A DNA stretch of 64,000 nucleotides, from contig NC_007503.1 of the NCBI RefSeq assembly GCF_000012865.1, forward strand, positions 1,586,001-1,650,000. Reading direction: 5' to 3'. Position 1 is the first letter of the stretch, and every line of letters starts with the position of its first letter. Positions 53,058 to 61,128 of this stretch are shown here, in pieces. Made by a program: the position numbers and the translations under genes. The notes under the pieces were generated by a model. That model did no database searches. It saw nothing but the letters and a program-made list of their open reading frames with translations, and was not told where the DNA came from. The DNA comes from Carboxydothermus hydrogenoformans Z-2901. GTDB lineage: Bacteria > Bacillota > Z-2901 > Carboxydothermales > Carboxydothermaceae.

Positions 53058-54029
53058 CTACCCTTTTACTAACGTTAAAATCAAGCTGATTAATGCCAGT
53101 ACTGTGGGATACTTGAGATAAAATTTAAAGGCCTGATCTATCCGTACTCTTCCCGTACTGGAGCGAATAATTGTAATAGAAATAAACAATAAGATTAAAC
53201 ATTTTAACAAAAACCACACCAGGTTAAGCAAAAGGTTTTCACTCAGAGGGGTTGGAAAAAAGAGCGCTATACCTAAACCCAGTACCACTACCATTTTTAG
53301 GGCGTTGGTTAGCTTAAATAAAGCCAGCCAACTCCCGGAATATTCCAGAATAGGGCCTTCAACAATTTCCGTTTCCGCCTCTGGAATATCAAAAGGAACA
53401 ACTCCTATAGTACCGGGGATAAAAACCAGAAAAGCTAAAAGAGCCGGTAACATGGTGTAATCAAACAGTAAAGCTCCGTTTTCCACTTGGTACTGGACAA
53501 TTTTACTTAAAGAAAAGGTGGCAATACCGCCGGTTGCTAATCCAACCTTTAAAGCAACGGTCACCAGGACTATCAGTAACGGCAACTCATAAGCCATCAT
53601 CATGACCATTTCCCGCGAGGAACCTATAGCCCCAAAGGGTGAACTGGAGGCCGAACCTCCGACTATCAAGGCAATAGCCGGCAAGGACAACAAATAAAGT
53701 AAAACCAGCAAATCTCCCGCAAAGTTCAAACCTGGATAAACCCCCGCAACAGGGATCAGGGTTACTGCTACCAGCATCCCAGCAAACCCTAACAACGGCG
53801 CTAACCTGAAAGCCGGCAGGTGTGCCGTCTCGGGCACAACCACCTCCTTCAGGGTTAATTTGGCCAGGTCAATAAAGGGCTGGTAAAGAGGTGGCCCCAC
53901 CCGTCTCTGGGCGCGGGCAACAATTTTGCGGTCAATTCCCATCAGAAGCAAACCAAGGACTAAAGCAAACAGGCCACCGGGAAAGAGCAGGAAATTAAAA
54001 ATTAAATGACCGATATCCGTCACAATCAC
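53058..54029 (-). CDS. cooK: Hydrogenase membrane subunit CooK (NuoH-like)
   Basis: A 323-residue membrane protein with about eight segments. The DRKIVARAQRRVGPPLYQPFIDLAKL block near residue 28 and the PFDIPEAETEIVEGPILEYSG motif near 217 are the conserved NuoH quinone-site and link regions. In this hydrogenase it connects the soluble redox arm to ion pumping by CooM. It overlaps cooM by 4 nt. Confidence 0.95.
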   Translation of the reverse strand: MIVTDIGHLIFNFLLFPGGLFALVLGLLLMGIDRKIVARAQRRVGPPLYQPFIDLAKLTLKEVVVPETAHLPAFRLAPLLGFAGMLVAVTLIPVAGVYPGLNFAGDLLVLLYLLSLPAIALIVGGSASSSPFGAIGSSREMVMMMAYELPLLIVLVTVALKVGLATGGIATFSLSKIVQYQVENGALLFDYTMLPALLAFLVFIPGTIGVVPFDIPEAETEIVEGPILEYSGSWLALFKLTNALKMVVVLGLGIALFFPTPLSENLLLNLVWFLLKCLILLFISITIIRSSTGRVRIDQAFKFYLKYPTVLALISLILTLVKG

Positions 54030-57000
54030 ACCCCCTTACCCAAACCGGCAACCCGGTGTAAAAACTTAATCCATCCCTTAATTAACCCTTTGGGAGACTC
54101 ATAGAGATTATGCGAATTAACATGTACCTCTTCGGGAGTTAAAGTAGTTACCCCGCAGGTATAGATTTTGGTATAGCGGATTTTCCCATTGCCCACAAAA
54201 TAAATACTAAGGCCAACAATAAAGGCAATTACCATAAACACCGCAATAATTCCGGCATTCCAGGTACCAAGGCCGGAATCAATCCCGAAAAGGGTAACTG
54301 AAACCGGTGTCAGCCCCAACGACCTTTCGATGGCAGCAATAGTAGCAAGTGGTATCCCCGGGAAAATCCCAAATACCATACATAAAACAGCTAAAATCAC
54401 CATAGGAATTTGCATTGTCCAGGGTGCTTCAGTTACGTTCTCCAATTCCTTAGGTATTTGTCCAAAAAAGGCAGAATGTAAAAATTTAAGGAACGAAGCC
54501 AGGGTCAAAACACTTGCTAACAAAGATAATAACGCTAAAAATACATATCCCTTCTCCATGGACGCTTCATAGATTAGCCATTTAGATGTAAAACCATTAA
54601 AAGGCGGAATACCGGCAATAGAGAATGTCCCAATCGCAAAGACACTGAGAGTTACCGGCATTTTTCGGCCTATTCCTCCTAACCTGTCCAGATCCCCTAT
54701 ACCGGTTTTCACCATAATGGCACCGGCAACCAAGAAAAGCAGGTTCTTAAACAGCATATGGTTAACTAAATGCAATAATCCTCCGGCCAGACCTAAAGAA
54801 GAGCCCAGGCTTATTCCCAAGATGATATAACCCATCTGACTTACCGTATGATAAATAAGCAGGCGTTTCATACCACTTTGCAGCAAAGCCAATGCCGCAG
54901 CCATTAAAATCGTTAAGCCGCTCACCCAGGCAAGGATGTACATGAGGCTTGGCATATCTCCAAGCTGGCCCAGCTTGCTTAAAAGAGCAACGCCTCCAAA
55001 TACATAAAATAACTTAACCATCCCAAAAGGCGCACTTTTTAAAAGCACCGAAGAAATATAACCGCTCACCGGTGTTGGGGCGGTAGGAGGATGCATCTGA
55101 TAATCGATGCGGAAAGGTAACATCGCAGCTTTCATGGCAAAACCAATCAACATTAAGATTAAGCCAAGAGCCACCAGACCTGTGGGCAGGGCACTTAACC
55201 GCCCGGCCAGCTCACTCATTTCAAAGGTGCCGGCGTTAACTGTTAATACAAGTAGTCCCAGAAGCAGCAAATTGGCTCCAACGTAATTAAAGATGAAGTA
55301 CTTGAACCCTTCCCGCAATGCCTCGCTGGTTTCCTCATGAATAATCACAAAGTACAATGTCCAGCTGCTCATGATTTCCCAGAAAGCGAAGAAATTGAAG
55401 AGATCCTTACTTACCGCTACACCCAAAAGGCCGCCAATCATTAAGGTAAAGAACAGGTAAAAGCGATTTTGGGCATGTTCATGTTCCATATATCCCAGGG
55501 AATAAAGTAAATTTAAAACACCAATAAAGGCGATGAGGAAAGCAAAACTCCGGGAAAATATGTCCAGGCCAGTGGATGCCGCAAAAACTGTGGCAAGCGT
55601 TGCTACCATAGTTGCAACTGCTAACCAACCGCTAACTTTAACCGAACGTCTTCCGAAAAAGTAAGCAAAGAGAGCCCCCACCATCGGAATTAGCGTAACT
55701 ATTGGCCAGGAGATGGTAATTTTAGGAATAGCCGTTACGGCCATATGTCCGTTAGCCGCAATTAAATCGGCAACCGGCTTAATTAAAGCCAGACCCGCTT
55801 GCGGATATACGCCATTAAAAATGGACAAACCCGTTAAAATCACAATTGGTATCAACATGGTAATCGGGGCTTCCTGCCGGGCCGGCCCCTCATACTTTTC
55901 AAAGAAAATAATTCTAACCACTTTCAGGTAATAAAAACCACCAAGGATACTGCCTAAAAGGATTAAACCTGCCAGTGCCAGATGACCGGATTGGACCAGA
56001 GCGTACAGCATTAAAAATTTACTGATAAACCCGTTGAAGGGCGGCAAACCCATTATGGCTAAGATCCCGATACTAAAACATAAAGACGTTACCGGCATTA
56101 CTCGGCCGATACCTTTAAGCTTATTAATCTCCTGACTTTTTACGCGCAAGATTAAAGCACCAACAGCCAGGAATAACAGATTTTTCATAATAGCATGATT
56201 TAAGATATGGTAAAGGGCACCGATAAAACTCAAATAAGTCCCTACTCCCAGAGTAATTACTATCTCCCCTACCTGGGCCATCGTTGAATAGGCCAGCATT
56301 TTCTTCACATCGGTCTGTAGCAGGGCCATAATTTCGCCGTACAAAAGGGTAAACGCTCCAAGCAGGGAGATTATAAACCCAATTGTGGAAAATTGACCGG
56401 TAGTACCTACTTTAGTCAGTAAACTTACCCCAAAAACCACAAAAAGGATGCGGACAAGTCCGTAAATACCGGTTTTGGTCAAAATCCCTGACATTGGGGC
56501 TGAAATAGACGAAGGCGCCACCGGGTGAGCATCCGGCAACCAGCTATGCAGCGGCACCAAGCCTGCTTTGACCCCAAAGCCAATAATAAACATTCCTAAA
56601 ACCACTAACATAAGACCGGGAGATAAAACCTGTAAATTTGCAGAAATTGTCGTCAGATCTAAAGATCCAAGTTTTACATGCAACGTTAAAATTGCCAAAA
56701 GCATAATATAAGCTCCGGAGGTACACATAATAAAATATTTAAAACCGGCACGCAGAGCTTTTTGAGTTTGCTCTTGAATAACCAAAAAGTAAGAAGTCCA
56801 GGTCATTAATTCCCAGAAGACATAAAAATTCCCCAGCTCCTTGCTGGTGGTTAAACCGAGCAAAGTACCCAACATTAACAGTAAAAAGAAGAAGTAACGG
56901 TTTGCATACGGTTTAGCTTTAAAATAACCCACCGAGTAAAGGGTAACCAAGAAACCGATAAAAGCCATAAGCAAAGCGAAAAATTTAGATAAACTATCAA

Positions 57001-57850
57001 AGTTACCGGCAAGCCAGGTCAAATAAACCGTTGTGCCGGTAATACCAACCGCCAGGATATTACGTAAGGCCTGGGAAAAACAGCCTGCAAGATAGACGAT
57101 AAATCCACCCACATAGGGAACGAGAACTAAGGAAGACCAGGGAGATTCAAAGACAGGCAATTGGTCCGGGCCTGTACCCCCTAACAATACGGCAGCAGCA
57201 CGTTCAGCACCGTGAATGAAAGGTTCCGGAATTAAGCCCATTAAAGCGGTAAGAACGCCCAAAACCAGTAAAACTGCCATTAAACCCGGAGAAGTTTCCC
57301 TGACTTCTTCGGCACCGGGTCCTTCCTGGACCGGATCTTCAAAGCACAGTATTTGAAAGACCTGAAGGAAATACACTGCCTCAATGATACTACCAAAGGT
57401 AGCTATTGCCGCTGACAACCAATGCCCACTCTCAATAGCAGCATAAATAATTAAAAATTTACTAATAGAACCTTTAAAGGGAGATAAACCCATCACAGAA
57501 AACAATCCAAAACCAAACAAGGTTGTCGTAACCGGCATTTTTCTACCTATACCTTGAAGCTTTTCCACGCTTGCAGAATGACCCCGAAAAATAAATGCCG
57601 CTGCAGCTAAAAAGACTAATCCTCTCATTACAATTTGATATTCCAAATGCAAGAGAGCTCCCGAAGTCCCCACATAGGTACCCGTGCCCAATCCCAAAAG
57701 TACGAAACCTATTTCCGCAATGCTTGAAATAATTAGAAATTGAATTAAGTTTTTCCACCGCAGTAGGGCAACCAGTTCCCCAACCAAAAGAAGCATTACC
57801 CCAAACAAGGCCTGCAGCGAGAGGCCATTAATTAAAAAACCTAAATCCAC
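54026..57850 (-). CDS. cooM: Hydrogenase antiporter-like membrane subunit CooM
   Basis: A 1,274-residue membrane protein, likely the ion-pumping subunit. It contains about two and a half antiporter (NuoL/M/N-type) modules. Residues 1-230 match only the second half of a module (from the GELVALLRW helix). Residues ~235-700 form a full module with the TM5 Glu in FYVFWELMTW and Lys in GFGVKAGLVPLHSWLPDAHP. Residues ~710-1190 form a second full module with FFAFWEIMSS and GFAMKAAMLP. The GTG start has a strong GGGAGGAGG SD. Confidence 0.94.
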   Translation of the reverse strand: MDLGFLINGLSLQALFGVMLLLVGELVALLRWKNLIQFLIISSIAEIGFVLLGLGTGTYVGTSGALLHLEYQIVMRGLVFLAAAAFIFRGHSASVEKLQGIGRKMPVTTTLFGFGLFSVMGLSPFKGSISKFLIIYAAIESGHWLSAAIATFGSIIEAVYFLQVFQILCFEDPVQEGPGAEEVRETSPGLMAVLLVLGVLTALMGLIPEPFIHGAERAAAVLLGGTGPDQLPVFESPWSSLVLVPYVGGFIVYLAGCFSQALRNILAVGITGTTVYLTWLAGNFDSLSKFFALLMAFIGFLVTLYSVGYFKAKPYANRYFFFLLLMLGTLLGLTTSKELGNFYVFWELMTWTSYFLVIQEQTQKALRAGFKYFIMCTSGAYIMLLAILTLHVKLGSLDLTTISANLQVLSPGLMLVVLGMFIIGFGVKAGLVPLHSWLPDAHPVAPSSISAPMSGILTKTGIYGLVRILFVVFGVSLLTKVGTTGQFSTIGFIISLLGAFTLLYGEIMALLQTDVKKMLAYSTMAQVGEIVITLGVGTYLSFIGALYHILNHAIMKNLLFLAVGALILRVKSQEINKLKGIGRVMPVTSLCFSIGILAIMGLPPFNGFISKFLMLYALVQSGHLALAGLILLGSILGGFYYLKVVRIIFFEKYEGPARQEAPITMLIPIVILTGLSIFNGVYPQAGLALIKPVADLIAANGHMAVTAIPKITISWPIVTLIPMVGALFAYFFGRRSVKVSGWLAVATMVATLATVFAASTGLDIFSRSFAFLIAFIGVLNLLYSLGYMEHEHAQNRFYLFFTLMIGGLLGVAVSKDLFNFFAFWEIMSSWTLYFVIIHEETSEALREGFKYFIFNYVGANLLLLGLLVLTVNAGTFEMSELAGRLSALPTGLVALGLILMLIGFAMKAAMLPFRIDYQMHPPTAPTPVSGYISSVLLKSAPFGMVKLFYVFGGVALLSKLGQLGDMPSLMYILAWVSGLTILMAAALALLQSGMKRLLIYHTVSQMGYIILGISLGSSLGLAGGLLHLVNHMLFKNLLFLVAGAIMVKTGIGDLDRLGGIGRKMPVTLSVFAIGTFSIAGIPPFNGFTSKWLIYEASMEKGYVFLALLSLLASVLTLASFLKFLHSAFFGQIPKELENVTEAPWTMQIPMVILAVLCMVFGIFPGIPLATIAAIERSLGLTPVSVTLFGIDSGLGTWNAGIIAVFMVIAFIVGLSIYFVGNGKIRYTKIYTCGVTTLTPEEVHVNSHNLYESPKGLIKGWIKFLHRVAGLGKGV

Positions 57851-57877
57851 ATTTCTTTCCTCCTCCCTGCATTGTGA

Positions 57878-57895
57878 TTGTGCATTTTTTCACAA
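57878..57895. promoter_or_regulatory. CRP/FNR-type half-site pair upstream of cooM (tentative)
   Basis: TTGTG-N8-CACAA is a perfect inverted repeat with CRP-family spacing. It lies just before the cooM SD, centred about 36 nt from the start codon. A class I or II activator there would place the transcript start inside cooM, so if functional it might block or modulate rather than activate. Confidence 0.3.
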
Positions 57896-57994
57896 GAAAG
57901 GAACCCTTTCTTTTCCTAATCTTCAATCGCCCTATTTACAAAAAGATAAAAAACTTTCTCCTAAAAATTTTTACCGCTGGCTTGCACTTTTTAA

Positions 57995-58801
57995 CTAACA
58001 ATTCTGCCTTTTCACTTCTTCCAATAAGCGCTCTTTAATACTATGACCTATGGCAACGATTTCGGGAGCTTGTTCAAATACGCTTACCCCTGATAAATCC
58101 GCTAAAATTAATGTCGGATCGTAAGGAATGAAACCTAAAATCGGTAAAAAGTTCAGTTCTTTTCGAATTATTTCCTCATCTCCTGGGCGCACCTTGTTAG
58201 CCACTGCAAAAATCTTAGTAACCCCTAAATCTCTGGCCAATGTTACTACCGCTCTTGCTGTCTGAAAACTCCGCTTACCCGGTTCAACTACAACTATGAA
58301 AGCGTCTACCCCTTCAGCCGTACCGCGCCCTAAATGCTCCAAACCCGCTTCCATATCAACAATCACGGTTTCGTCCGCCTTTAAAACCAGGTGACGGAGA
58401 AGATGCTTAAGTAAAACACTTTCCGGACAGGCACATCCCGAACCACCTCTGACTACTTTACCCATTTGCATCAACCGGATGCCGGCGTGCTCTACCACAT
58501 ATTTTTCTGGAATATCATCAACCCGCGGATTCAGGATAAAGTACTGACCTGATGTTCCCGGTTCAGCACCGGTCCGCTCTTTGATAAGCTCTTTATCCTC
58601 GGAAATAGCCGTCAATTTTTCTAAGACCTCCGTCGGAAATCCTAAAGCTGTGCCCAAGTTGGCATCAGGGTCGGCATCCACAGCCAGTACTCTTTTCCCC
58701 TCACGGGCAAAAATATGACTGAGCAATGCAGACAGTGTTGTTTTTCCTACACCACCCTTACCGGAAACAGCAATTTTCAGTCCCTTTTCAGACACCTGCA
58801 T
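57995..58801 (-). CDS. cooC: CODH nickel-insertion ATPase CooC
   Basis: A 268-residue MinD-family ATPase that helps insert nickel into the CODH C-cluster. The deviant Walker A is SGKGGVGKTT near residue 13; the DADPDANLG switch is near 42. The metal-binding CxC motif is in GGSGCACPE near residue 122 and would form a dimer-bridging site. It is the first gene behind the CooA-type promoter, 144 nt upstream of cooM. Confidence 0.95.
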   Translation of the reverse strand: MQVSEKGLKIAVSGKGGVGKTTLSALLSHIFAREGKRVLAVDADPDANLGTALGFPTEVLEKLTAISEDKELIKERTGAEPGTSGQYFILNPRVDDIPEKYVVEHAGIRLMQMGKVVRGGSGCACPESVLLKHLLRHLVLKADETVIVDMEAGLEHLGRGTAEGVDAFIVVVEPGKRSFQTARAVVTLARDLGVTKIFAVANKVRPGDEEIIRKELNFLPILGFIPYDPTLILADLSGVSVFEQAPEIVAIGHSIKERLLEEVKRQNC

Positions 58802-58865
58802 CCACTCCCTGACATTTAAGTAATATCCTTAATGAACAGCTTTTGAAACGTTCTAAAATTTACGC

Positions 58866-58915
58866 TAATTTTACTATAGCGAAGAGTTAAAAAAAAAACT
58901 GTCGTTTATCCGACA
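58866..58915 (-). promoter_or_regulatory. CooA-dependent class II promoter for the coo operon
   Basis: A perfect palindrome TGTCG-N6-CGACA (58900-58915), the form known for CooA sites, is followed by a -10 box TATAGT (58873-58878) and predicted start A at 58866. The site centre (between 58907 and 58908) falls at exactly -41.5, the class II position, replacing the -35. It would drive cooC and the genes beyond when CO-bound CooA is present. Confidence 0.8.
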
Positions 58916-58917
58916 GT
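58898..58917 (-). terminator. Terminator of cooA, coinciding with the CooA operator
   Basis: ACTGTCG pairs with CGACAGT (7 bp, 6-nt loop; extendable by A/T pairs) and is followed by ten Ts on the minus strand, about 45 nt after the cooA stop. It is a good intrinsic terminator that shares all its palindromic bases with the CooA-binding site. Confidence 0.85.
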
Positions 58918-58959
58918 TTTAGAAAAAATCAGCCATTCATTTTTAGTCTCGCTTCCTAA

Positions 58960-59625
58960 CTAAACGCCTGAGGAAAACTCCTTTAATTTTTGTAAATCTT
59001 TAAGCAATAGCGTTCGCTGATTCACTCTTTCTAAAATCCCCATTTTTTTGAAATCATTGAGAAGAACCGAAACCGTTTGACGGGTAGTCCCTAACATCAA
59101 AGCAATTTCTTCTGTATTTAAACCAAGCTCTAATTTTATTCCCTGCGGTACCTTTAACCCTGTATCCATTGCCGCTTGAACTAAAAATTCTGCAAGTCTC
59201 AAGCGAGCATCTTTAAAAACCAAGCCATTAATTATGGTAAGGGAGTTTTTAAGTAAATCCCCCAATACTTTAACCATATTTAAACTAAATGCCGGGAACT
59301 CGACAACAATATTTTGGAAGTTACGGATATCGGTATACAATATAGTTGTATCTTCCATTGCCTGGATAAAAGCCCTGGTATGGGTGCAGAAAATATCACC
59401 TGCTTCCAAAATGGCTAAGGTAAATTCCTTATCCTCATAGGCAAGATAAACCCTTACCCTCCCGGACTTAACTAAAAACACCAGGTTTCTCTCGGTATTC
59501 GGTGTATAGAGAATTGCCTTTTTTGAATACCGCTGTTCCCGAAACTCTTTTAAGACCCCAGAGTATTCCTCCGAATTCAGGACCTCCAACAAGTTAGTGT
59601 CGGTTAATCTCATTTGGGTGGCCAT
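58960..59625 (-). CDS. cooA: CO-sensing heme transcription activator CooA
   Basis: A 221-residue CRP/FNR-family protein. Cys80 and His82 in DIFCTHTR occupy the heme-ligand positions of CooA; the N-terminal Met-Ala provides the amino-terminal ligand type reported for this species. The effector domain runs to about residue 130, a long C-helix follows, and the winged HTH is TEEIALMLGTTRQTVSVLLNDF. CO binding displaces a heme ligand and permits DNA binding. It has its own promoter and lies directly upstream of the operon it should activate. Confidence 0.95.
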   Translation of the reverse strand: MATQMRLTDTNLLEVLNSEEYSGVLKEFREQRYSKKAILYTPNTERNLVFLVKSGRVRVYLAYEDKEFTLAILEAGDIFCTHTRAFIQAMEDTTILYTDIRNFQNIVVEFPAFSLNMVKVLGDLLKNSLTIINGLVFKDARLRLAEFLVQAAMDTGLKVPQGIKLELGLNTEEIALMLGTTRQTVSVLLNDFKKMGILERVNQRTLLLKDLQKLKEFSSGV

Positions 59626-59678
59626 AGTCCAGCCCCCTTAGCTTTTGTTGCTAATATTTACTGGTGGCTTCTACGGAC

Positions 59679-59706
59679 ATTATACCAGATTCAATTTGCC
59701 TTACAA
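59679..59706 (-). promoter_or_regulatory. Promoter of cooA
   Basis: -35 TTGTAA (59701-59706) and -10 TATAAT (59679-59684) with a 16-nt spacer; predicted start near 59672. The leader is about 47 nt. Just upstream an inverted repeat abuts the -35, so extra control is possible. Confidence 0.75.
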
Positions 59707-59708
59707 AG

Positions 59709-59733
59709 CATAGCAATTATATGTAATGCTATG
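59709..59733. promoter_or_regulatory. Inverted repeat upstream of the cooA promoter
   Basis: CATAGCA-N11-TGCTATG is a perfect 7-bp inverted repeat, 2 nt upstream of the cooA -35 box, centred near -49. It differs from the CooA site (TGTCG-N6-CGACA), so it would serve another regulator. Function is inferred from position only. Confidence 0.45.
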
Positions 59734-59787
59734 TAAACTTAAAATTTCGAAAAGTAAAACTCAGTGCAAATAAGCGGAAAAGCCATA

Positions 59788-59835
59788 AGAGACCTCACCC
59801 TCCTTCAACGCAAAGTACTGCCTGGTGAGGTCTCT
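59788..59835. repeat. Large perfect hairpin between glpC and cooA
   Basis: A perfect 12-bp inverted repeat (AGAGACCTCACC with GGTGAGGTCTCT) encloses 24 nt. On the plus strand it is followed by TTTTC and pyrimidines, like a terminator, yet no plus-strand gene precedes it. It might stop antisense transcripts entering glpC, or be a small repeated element. Confidence 0.6.
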
Positions 59836-59892
59836 TTTTCTTCTTCTCTTTCCCTTTTTCCTGCTTCCACCTACTTAAATTCTACACAGCCA

Positions 59893-59921
59893 TGCCGCGT
59901 TCAGGCAGGTTTAGCTTTCTT
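59893..59921. repeat. Copy B of the direct repeat flanking the coo cluster
   Basis: 59893-59912 is identical to 47148-47167, and the similarity extends over about 9 further bases with one indel and one mismatch. It covers the glpC stop codon. Unlike copy A it lacks the distal stem arm, so glpC has no intact terminator here. Confidence 0.75.
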
Positions 59922-61128
59922 TTGTAATTTTTTCAGCTAAAAGCTCTAACGGATGATACACCGGCAGGCCACTTACATTGTTAAGCTGCACTCCGCACAT
60001 TCCGCACTCGGTAACAAGAGCCTCGGGTGCCTGGCGGTCTATAGCCTTTTTTAGATTTTGGCCAATAGCCTCGGTTACCGGCTCTTTTTCTGCCTTTAAG
60101 CCGTAACTTCCCGAAAGGCCGCAACACCCGGCATCCAACGGCACTACTTTATTTTCCGTCACTTCGTTTAAAAGTTCCAAACCCGGAGTTCCTATTCCCG
60201 ATGCTTTTAAATGGCACGGTTCATGATAAGCATACTTGCCCTCTATCGGCTCACCCTCCAGGAAATAGTTAATTTCTTGAAGTCCCCTTAAAAACTCGCC
60301 GGCCTCATAGAAATACGGCACAAACTCCCTGGCTTCTTCGATTCCAAGTAACCCTCCGTACTCTTCTTTAAAAGTTAAAAGGCAGCTTGGACAGGAAAAC
60401 AATACGGGAATCCCATCCTTTACATATTTTTTAAGCTGGCTTAAATTAAAATAAGCAAATTCTTGAGCAGTATCAAGTCTACCATTTCCTATCGCCGGCT
60501 GACCGCAACATTTAAACTCCGGAACGATAACCTCGTAATTCAAGCGGTTTAAAATTTTCACCAGAGCTTCCCCAACTTCCGGTTTATTATACTCGGTAAA
60601 ACAGCCTGGAAAATATACAACCTTGTTTTTCGGTTTATTTACTTTTTGCCGGTAATGACCAAACCAGCGGGAAAAACTCTTGTGAGCGTATGCCGGAAAA
60701 GAAATATTTGCGGATATTCCAAAAAGGGTTTTGCCTATTAGGCGAAAGATTTTAATCTTCGTAATGAAGTTCACCAAACCGGCAAAATTTACCGCAATCC
60801 TTCCAAGCAAACGGGGATTGGCAAAAAGTTTTTCCCTTAATCTAAGTCCTTTTTTCTTTAATTTTTCCGCCCGGGTAAGCTGGTTTAACGACGCCACCGG
60901 AACTCCCGAGGGACAGGCAATTTCACAGTTTTTGCAGTTAGAACAGTACTCTATTCCTTCGGGGTAATCTACTTTCGTTTCAGCGTTTAAAGAAAGTCTG
61001 AGCCAATCGGGGCCAACCGCTTTGGGTCCGGGAAAATCAGGATTTACCTTGGCTACAGGACAGTTAGCGGTACAGGTGGAACATTTGGCACAATGATTTA
61101 GAGTTTCCAGAGAAATATCTTTAAGCAT
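59911..61128 (-). CDS. glpC: Anaerobic glycerol-3-phosphate dehydrogenase subunit C
   Basis: A 405-residue iron-sulfur protein. Two N-terminal [4Fe-4S] motifs are CAKCSTCTANCPVAK near residue 13 and CSNCKNCEIACP near 62. Two C-terminal CCG domains follow (PGCFTEYNKPEVGE...FKCCGQPAIGNGR and EPCHLKASG...GCCGLSGSYGLK). It anchors the GlpAB dimer and passes electrons to menaquinone. The start overlaps glpB by 8 nt. Its stop codon lies within the flanking repeat. Confidence 0.93.
   Translation of the reverse strand: MLKDISLETLNHCAKCSTCTANCPVAKVNPDFPGPKAVGPDWLRLSLNAETKVDYPEGIEYCSNCKNCEIACPSGVPVASLNQLTRAEKLKKKGLRLREKLFANPRLLGRIAVNFAGLVNFITKIKIFRLIGKTLFGISANISFPAYAHKSFSRWFGHYRQKVNKPKNKVVYFPGCFTEYNKPEVGEALVKILNRLNYEVIVPEFKCCGQPAIGNGRLDTAQEFAYFNLSQLKKYVKDGIPVLFSCPSCLLTFKEEYGGLLGIEEAREFVPYFYEAGEFLRGLQEINYFLEGEPIEGKYAYHEPCHLKASGIGTPGLELLNEVTENKVVPLDAGCCGLSGSYGLKAEKEPVTEAIGQNLKKAIDRQAPEALVTECGMCGVQLNNVSGLPVYHPLELLAEKITKES

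Follow-up and report, generated by a model that had tools for sequence, protein, structure and literature searches.

The cooA-cooC gap of Carboxydothermus hydrogenoformans contains a palindrome that is well supported, and largely known already, as the CooA operator of the cooC promoter, and whose A/T-rich flanks in Carboxydothermus would turn its transcript into a 10-bp RNA hairpin with a U-tract. This overlap of an operator with a likely terminator is a real variant, apparently undescribed before. We consider it probable that the palindrome is a class II CooA operator, that its hairpin is now the default terminator of cooA, and that these two uses are mutually exclusive.

CooA operator and cooC promoter

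On the minus strand of the window (the whole 64,000 nt stretch of DNA that was analysed), glpC is followed by cooA (59625-58960), cooC (58801-57995) and the CODH-I/hydrogenase genes through cooS. The features of this region are:

59679-59706, minus strand: candidate cooA promoter TTGTAA-16-TATAAT, with TG ahead of the -10 (consensus scan only)
58960-59625, minus strand: cooA (CooA-1), CO-sensing heme activator of the CRP family (PDB 2fmy/2hkx match, heme-His motif)
58947-58956, minus strand: GGAAGCGAGA, probable remnant 5′ arm of a lost dedicated cooA terminator (alignment after the stop codon)
58895-58920, minus strand: hairpin AAAACTGTCG-GATAAA-CGACAGTTTT of the putative cooA terminator, with the operator inside (folding)
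58900-58915, minus strand: CooA operator TGTCGGATAAACGACA, centre at -41.5 (exact consensus, unique in the genome)
58889-58898, minus strand: T10 tract, -32 to -23, putative terminator U-tract and promoter spacer (T10 in three Carboxydothermus species)
58873-58878, minus strand: -10 element TATAGT of the cooC promoter (TAnnnT 21 bp past the operator in 25/30 loci)
58866, minus strand: predicted start of the cooC-M-K-L-X-U-H-hypA-F-S transcript (from the position of the -10)
57995-58801, minus strand: cooC, first gene of the CODH-I/ECH operon (ORF)

The best structure matches of the CooA encoded in the window were PDB 2fmy and 2hkx, which are named CooA-1 and represent the same protein (E ~1e-137). 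The heme-histidine motif GDIFCTH and the recognition helix TTRQT were both present, indicating that the genome encodes a bona fide CooA, and the heme histidine was kept in all CooA homologues compared at full length. Near a CODH cluster the genome has a second copy, cooA-2 (L018, G000:C1:71330-71908), with an internal TAA representing either a sequencing error or a real frameshift. Promoter matches of the consensus scan, among them the candidate cooA promoter, were not more numerous than expected by chance, and a motif scan of the window that allowed one mismatch found no CooA site adjoining that candidate. A search of 57800-60000 against Rfam gave no match. The cooM reading frame (54026-57850, 1274 aa) contains several antiporter-like modules, with three stretches present in many family matches.

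The minus strand at 58920-58889 reads AAAACTGTCG GATAAA CGACAG TTTTTTTTTT, and the gap is arranged as AAAACTGTCG-GATAAA-CGACAG-T10-AACTCTTCGC-TATAGT. The perfect CooA site TGTCG-N6-CGACA of the original prediction was confirmed as exact at 58915-58900, conforms fully to the TGTCR-N6-YGACR palindrome, and was the sole exact copy found by motif search in both the window and the 2,401,520-bp genome. Since base composition alone would yield about one exact copy per genome, the evidence lies in its position, in the cooA-cooC gap and 21 bp before a -10 element, and not in its existence. The combined pattern TGTC-N8-GACA-N21-TAnnnT matched once genome-wide, at the cooC promoter, with no match for the backward control pattern. 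Ten other genomic sites with up to one mismatch were not counted as operators, as most are coding in context, a context given by ORFs listed only for L001 and L005. A one-mismatch site within cooA (59290-59305), which also scans as a terminator-like hairpin, is probably due to chance.

When CooA binds CO, the palindrome at 58915-58900 would drive cooC and the operon for CODH-I and the energy-converting hydrogenase. Such control from cooC onward, as originally proposed, is supported by spacing conserved in two phyla, by the CooA sites marked in the published map of the C. hydrogenoformans CODH-I/hydrogenase cluster (PMC6085454), and by binding data obtained by others: pcooC-hyd of Techtmann et al. 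is the same promoter, and its DNA was shifted by both CooA-1 and CooA-2 in EMSA according to the corrigendum text, which itself does not mention a terminator (PMC6041983). C. islandicus (L024) and C. pertinax (L052) have the same operator sequence, and cooC was 91-92% identical in two other Carboxydothermus genomes, with its position relative to the operator unchanged.

The position of the -35 element reads CAGTTT, and no -35 is recognisable. The geometry in which the operator is centred at -41.5 from a start set by TATAGT (58878-58873) was borne out: the operator centre (58907.5) lies at -41.5 if +1 is the predicted start at 58866, a figure that presumes a start seven bases after the -10, the measured quantity being the spacing from operator to -10 alone. 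The cooC promoter consequently has the class II layout, with the site centre near -41.5 beside the -10 and without a -35. In an alignment of 30 operators adjoining cooA genes of Firmicutes and Desulfobacterota, 25/30 loci had a TAnnnT that begins exactly 21 bp beyond the operator, and no other tested offset held one in more than 5/30. Three loci outside this set (L118, L119 and L120) also fit the 21-bp spacing, which is one base off in Carboxydocella (L025) and L087. Judged from these sequences, the alignment shows the predicted -41.5 geometry to be a general rule of CooA promoters in two phyla, not a peculiarity of Carboxydothermus, and so rigid a spacing can help to predict CO regulons and to design CO-responsive promoters. 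The overlapping TAAAAT (58873-58868) matches 5/6 consensus positions, and as the true -10 it would set the start at ~58861 and the site centre at ~-46.5, but C. islandicus, C. pertinax and Carboxydocella do not share it, in contrast to the widely conserved TAnnnT at offset 21; TATAGT was therefore chosen, and we regard TAAAAT as a most improbable -10. An inverted repeat CGCTA-N9-TAGCG (58862-58880) spans the -10 and the start, and is found in three Carboxydothermus species and nearly so in Carboxydocella.

The CooA sites of the Rhodospirillum rubrum cooF and cooM promoters are reported to be centred near -43.5 and -38.5, and we know of no overlap of a CooA site with the terminator of the regulator gene in this organism. 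These class II promoters resemble the cooC promoter in having the same 16-bp consensus (TGTCRNNNNNNYGACR, cited in PMC6085454), an activator beside the -35 region and no recognisable -35.

The operator hairpin as a candidate cooA terminator

A palindromic operator is a hairpin by itself, and hence reading it as a terminator requires separate evidence. The operator hairpin folds with a dG37 of -12.7 kcal/mol (z = -6.0) and is followed immediately by the U-tract, as in intrinsic terminators. Four of the ten Ts (58898-58889) pair with AAAA at 58920-58917, giving a 10-bp stem and six unpaired U residues. The original prediction had combined hairpin and ten U residues into a terminator for cooA; sequence, fold and T10 agree with this, only six of the U residues are unpaired, and termination of cooA at the operator hairpin is plausible.

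The hairpin was compared with hairpin-plus-T candidates located after genes in a 464-kb sample of the genome (20 stretches). At 37°C, 51% of these candidates were equally weak or weaker; the share was 36% at 70°C, which is near the growth optimum of C. hydrogenoformans. The operator hairpin is thus comparable in strength to the host's terminators, matching their median at 37°C and falling below it at 70°C, and is an ordinary, somewhat weak terminator candidate for this genome. An A/U-extended stem was also found in other candidates of the genome. Equally strong hairpins before a T-tract occurred only four times in 97.7 kb of coding sequence (~0.04/kb), making it unlikely that the hairpin at 58895-58920 arose by chance alone, and a terminator scan of the gap found no other terminator-like hairpin between cooA and cooC. 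With intrinsic terminators in general it shares a GC-containing stem, a 6-nt loop, an A/U-extended stem and a U-tract, but unlike those the Carboxydothermus stem doubles as the operator of a transcription factor. A literature search for a terminator doubling as an operator, with subscription papers mostly outside its reach, returned no close precedent.

The T-tract is exactly T10 in three Carboxydothermus species and T8 in Carboxydocella, and the block of operator, hairpin and T10 is identical in the three species. One of these lacks an intact cooA-1: genome G002, whose features agree with those published for C. pertinax (PMC6557876), has a frame-shifted fragment of ~50 codons that a deletion has fused to the operator, with the junction a few bases before it (L052:1262-1402 = G002:C6:104736-104885). 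Operator, hairpin and T10 are unchanged there, and the promoter serves the CO-induced hydrogenase (ECH) cluster, the sole induced cluster with a CooA site (PMC6557876). The intact block in the absence of cooA-1 indicates that operator and T10 are independent of cooA. The unchanged T10 of C. pertinax weighs neither for nor against a terminator function, as about one substitution at most was expected in it; the cooA-1 fragment is 83% identical to the window, versus 90% between the two species keeping cooA.

Dedicated terminators and other overlaps in related coo clusters

Carboxydocella and Calderihabitans likewise carry cooA directly upstream of a CooA-controlled operon with the operator in the gap (PMC6085454, PMC7306483, neither of which discusses terminators), but Carboxydocella (L025) differs in having a dedicated terminator between cooA and operator. 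This terminator, GGAGCGAAA-loop-TTTCGCTC-Tn, lies right after cooA, as does (A)GAAGCGAAA-loop-TTTCGCTTC-Tn in Desulforamulus putei (L046) and a Clostridiales MAG (L027), with the CooA operator ~50-80 bp further on in these three loci. Dedicated cooA terminators were also found in L074, L075, L079, L030, L118 and L120. At L026 (4645-5743), cooA and the operator are ~1 kb apart and the T-tract of the dedicated terminator has been lost, as if an insertion had occurred.

Just past the cooA stop codon of the window, GGAAGCGAGA aligns with the terminators of L046, L027 and L025, and the 3′ arm and T-tract are absent; the corresponding alignment after the cooA stop of C. islandicus showed neither arm. 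In a CooA tree Carboxydothermus groups with the lineages that have dedicated terminators, the support of 100/98 applying to the group and not to the order inside it. Carboxydocella combines its dedicated terminator with an operator hairpin that has T8 and one internal mismatch, and this arrangement apparently resembles an intermediate. The A located two bases past the operator is nearly invariant elsewhere in the operator alignment, and is replaced in Carboxydothermus by a T that completes the stem. The simplest reading of these comparisons, which come mostly from one lineage, is that the operator hairpin took over while the dedicated cooA terminator decayed, in an order of events that we infer. 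Given the decay of the ancestral separate terminator, the operator hairpin most likely now ends cooA transcripts by default. Here one could trace how the dedicated terminator of a regulator gene decayed and was replaced by the DNA site that the regulator itself binds, with the state before the change seen in relatives.

A search for the same overlap in related coo clusters, as suggested in the original prediction, succeeded only within the genus: C. islandicus and C. pertinax have the identical block, whereas sister lineages keep the two elements separate and a distant CooA clade has a different overlap. In this distant clade (L083, L087, L089, L090, L092 and L094; support 99/98) a GC-rich terminator, GGCGGGATgacagaatATCCCGCC-T6, lies upstream of cooF-cooS, and the operator TGTCGGCGGGATGACA forms only its 5′ arm and loop; with a single exception among these loci, TACAAT begins 21 bp beyond the operator. 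At L119, a hairpin 3′ of cooA (AAAACTTCCC-TATAATCTAAATTA-GGGAAGTTTT, followed by a T-tract) encloses the -10 element of the coo promoter. Mergers of a regulator's terminator with a coo promoter thus appear to have taken at least two forms, and perhaps three. Overlaps were observed in 4 lineages, versus 4.9/14 expected if terminators are placed uniformly in intergenic regions, and crowding in short gaps therefore suffices as a cause. Overlap as a selected trait was rejected, being no commoner than short intergenic regions predict, and the proposal that a single element was selected to link regulator and operon is weakened both by this chance-level frequency and by relatives that separate the two.

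Proposed dual use and alternative explanations

In the proposed model, polymerase leaving cooA without CO would cross the operator and terminate over the promoter spacer. In the presence of CO, the operator DNA would be held by CooA together with polymerase bound at the promoter, an incoming polymerase would be blocked before the hairpin is made, and the two uses would exclude each other. The palindrome may alternatively serve as operator only, with the hairpin arising inevitably from a palindromic CRP-family site flanked by A/T, the T-tract as a promoter spacer that assists bending or melting, and cooA without an efficient terminator and partly reading into cooC. Every palindromic operator folds, the block is retained in C. 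pertinax without cooA, overlaps are as frequent as crowding predicts, and 5′ A-tracts and T-rich spacers also occur at the CooA sites of relatives with a dedicated terminator (such as the T8 of Carboxydocella), so that T10 may be a promoter feature. An operator-only role does not account for the 3′ flank, which departs from the near-invariant A in the very direction that completes the stem, nor for T10 after a perfect 10-bp stem, which is the format of ordinary host terminators, and it would leave cooA with no other terminator-like hairpin before cooC. On balance we consider this explanation rather unlikely, and favour the dual use of the palindrome.

The original prediction also suggested that CooA with bound CO might form a roadblock and so make cooA termination at the operator hairpin sharper. 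The operator is on the path of cooA transcription, and roadblocks by DNA-bound proteins are an established phenomenon. In textbook footprints, polymerase extends ~18 bp ahead of its active site and a CRP-like protein covers ~14 bp on either side of the operator centre. Calculated from the coordinates and these footprints, CooA at ~58894-58921 would halt polymerase with its active site at ~58939, before 58920-58895 is transcribed, whereas aiding termination would take a stop at or after the U-tract. As CooA covers the DNA that encodes the hairpin, bound CooA could not aid the hairpin and would instead replace it as a block. In Calderihabitans, cooA RNA was unchanged by CO although the downstream cooS6 was induced (PMC7306483), an observation that does not favour any control of cooA termination by CO. 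A sharpening roadblock is geometrically unlikely, and we give it very little credence.

In the dual-use model, polymerase terminating at ~58889-58893 would already be past the operator and covering the -10, and cooA transcription may therefore interfere with the binding of CooA or deliver polymerase to the promoter. Reinitiation after termination at nearby promoters has been demonstrated in vitro (PMC6978380). A coupling in which polymerase, let go while its leading edge lies over the cooC -10, reinitiates there or evicts CooA is an improbable extension of the model; relatives in which a dedicated terminator shields the operator would lack such feedback, and the clade of L083, L087 and L089 would have acquired a comparable coupling independently.
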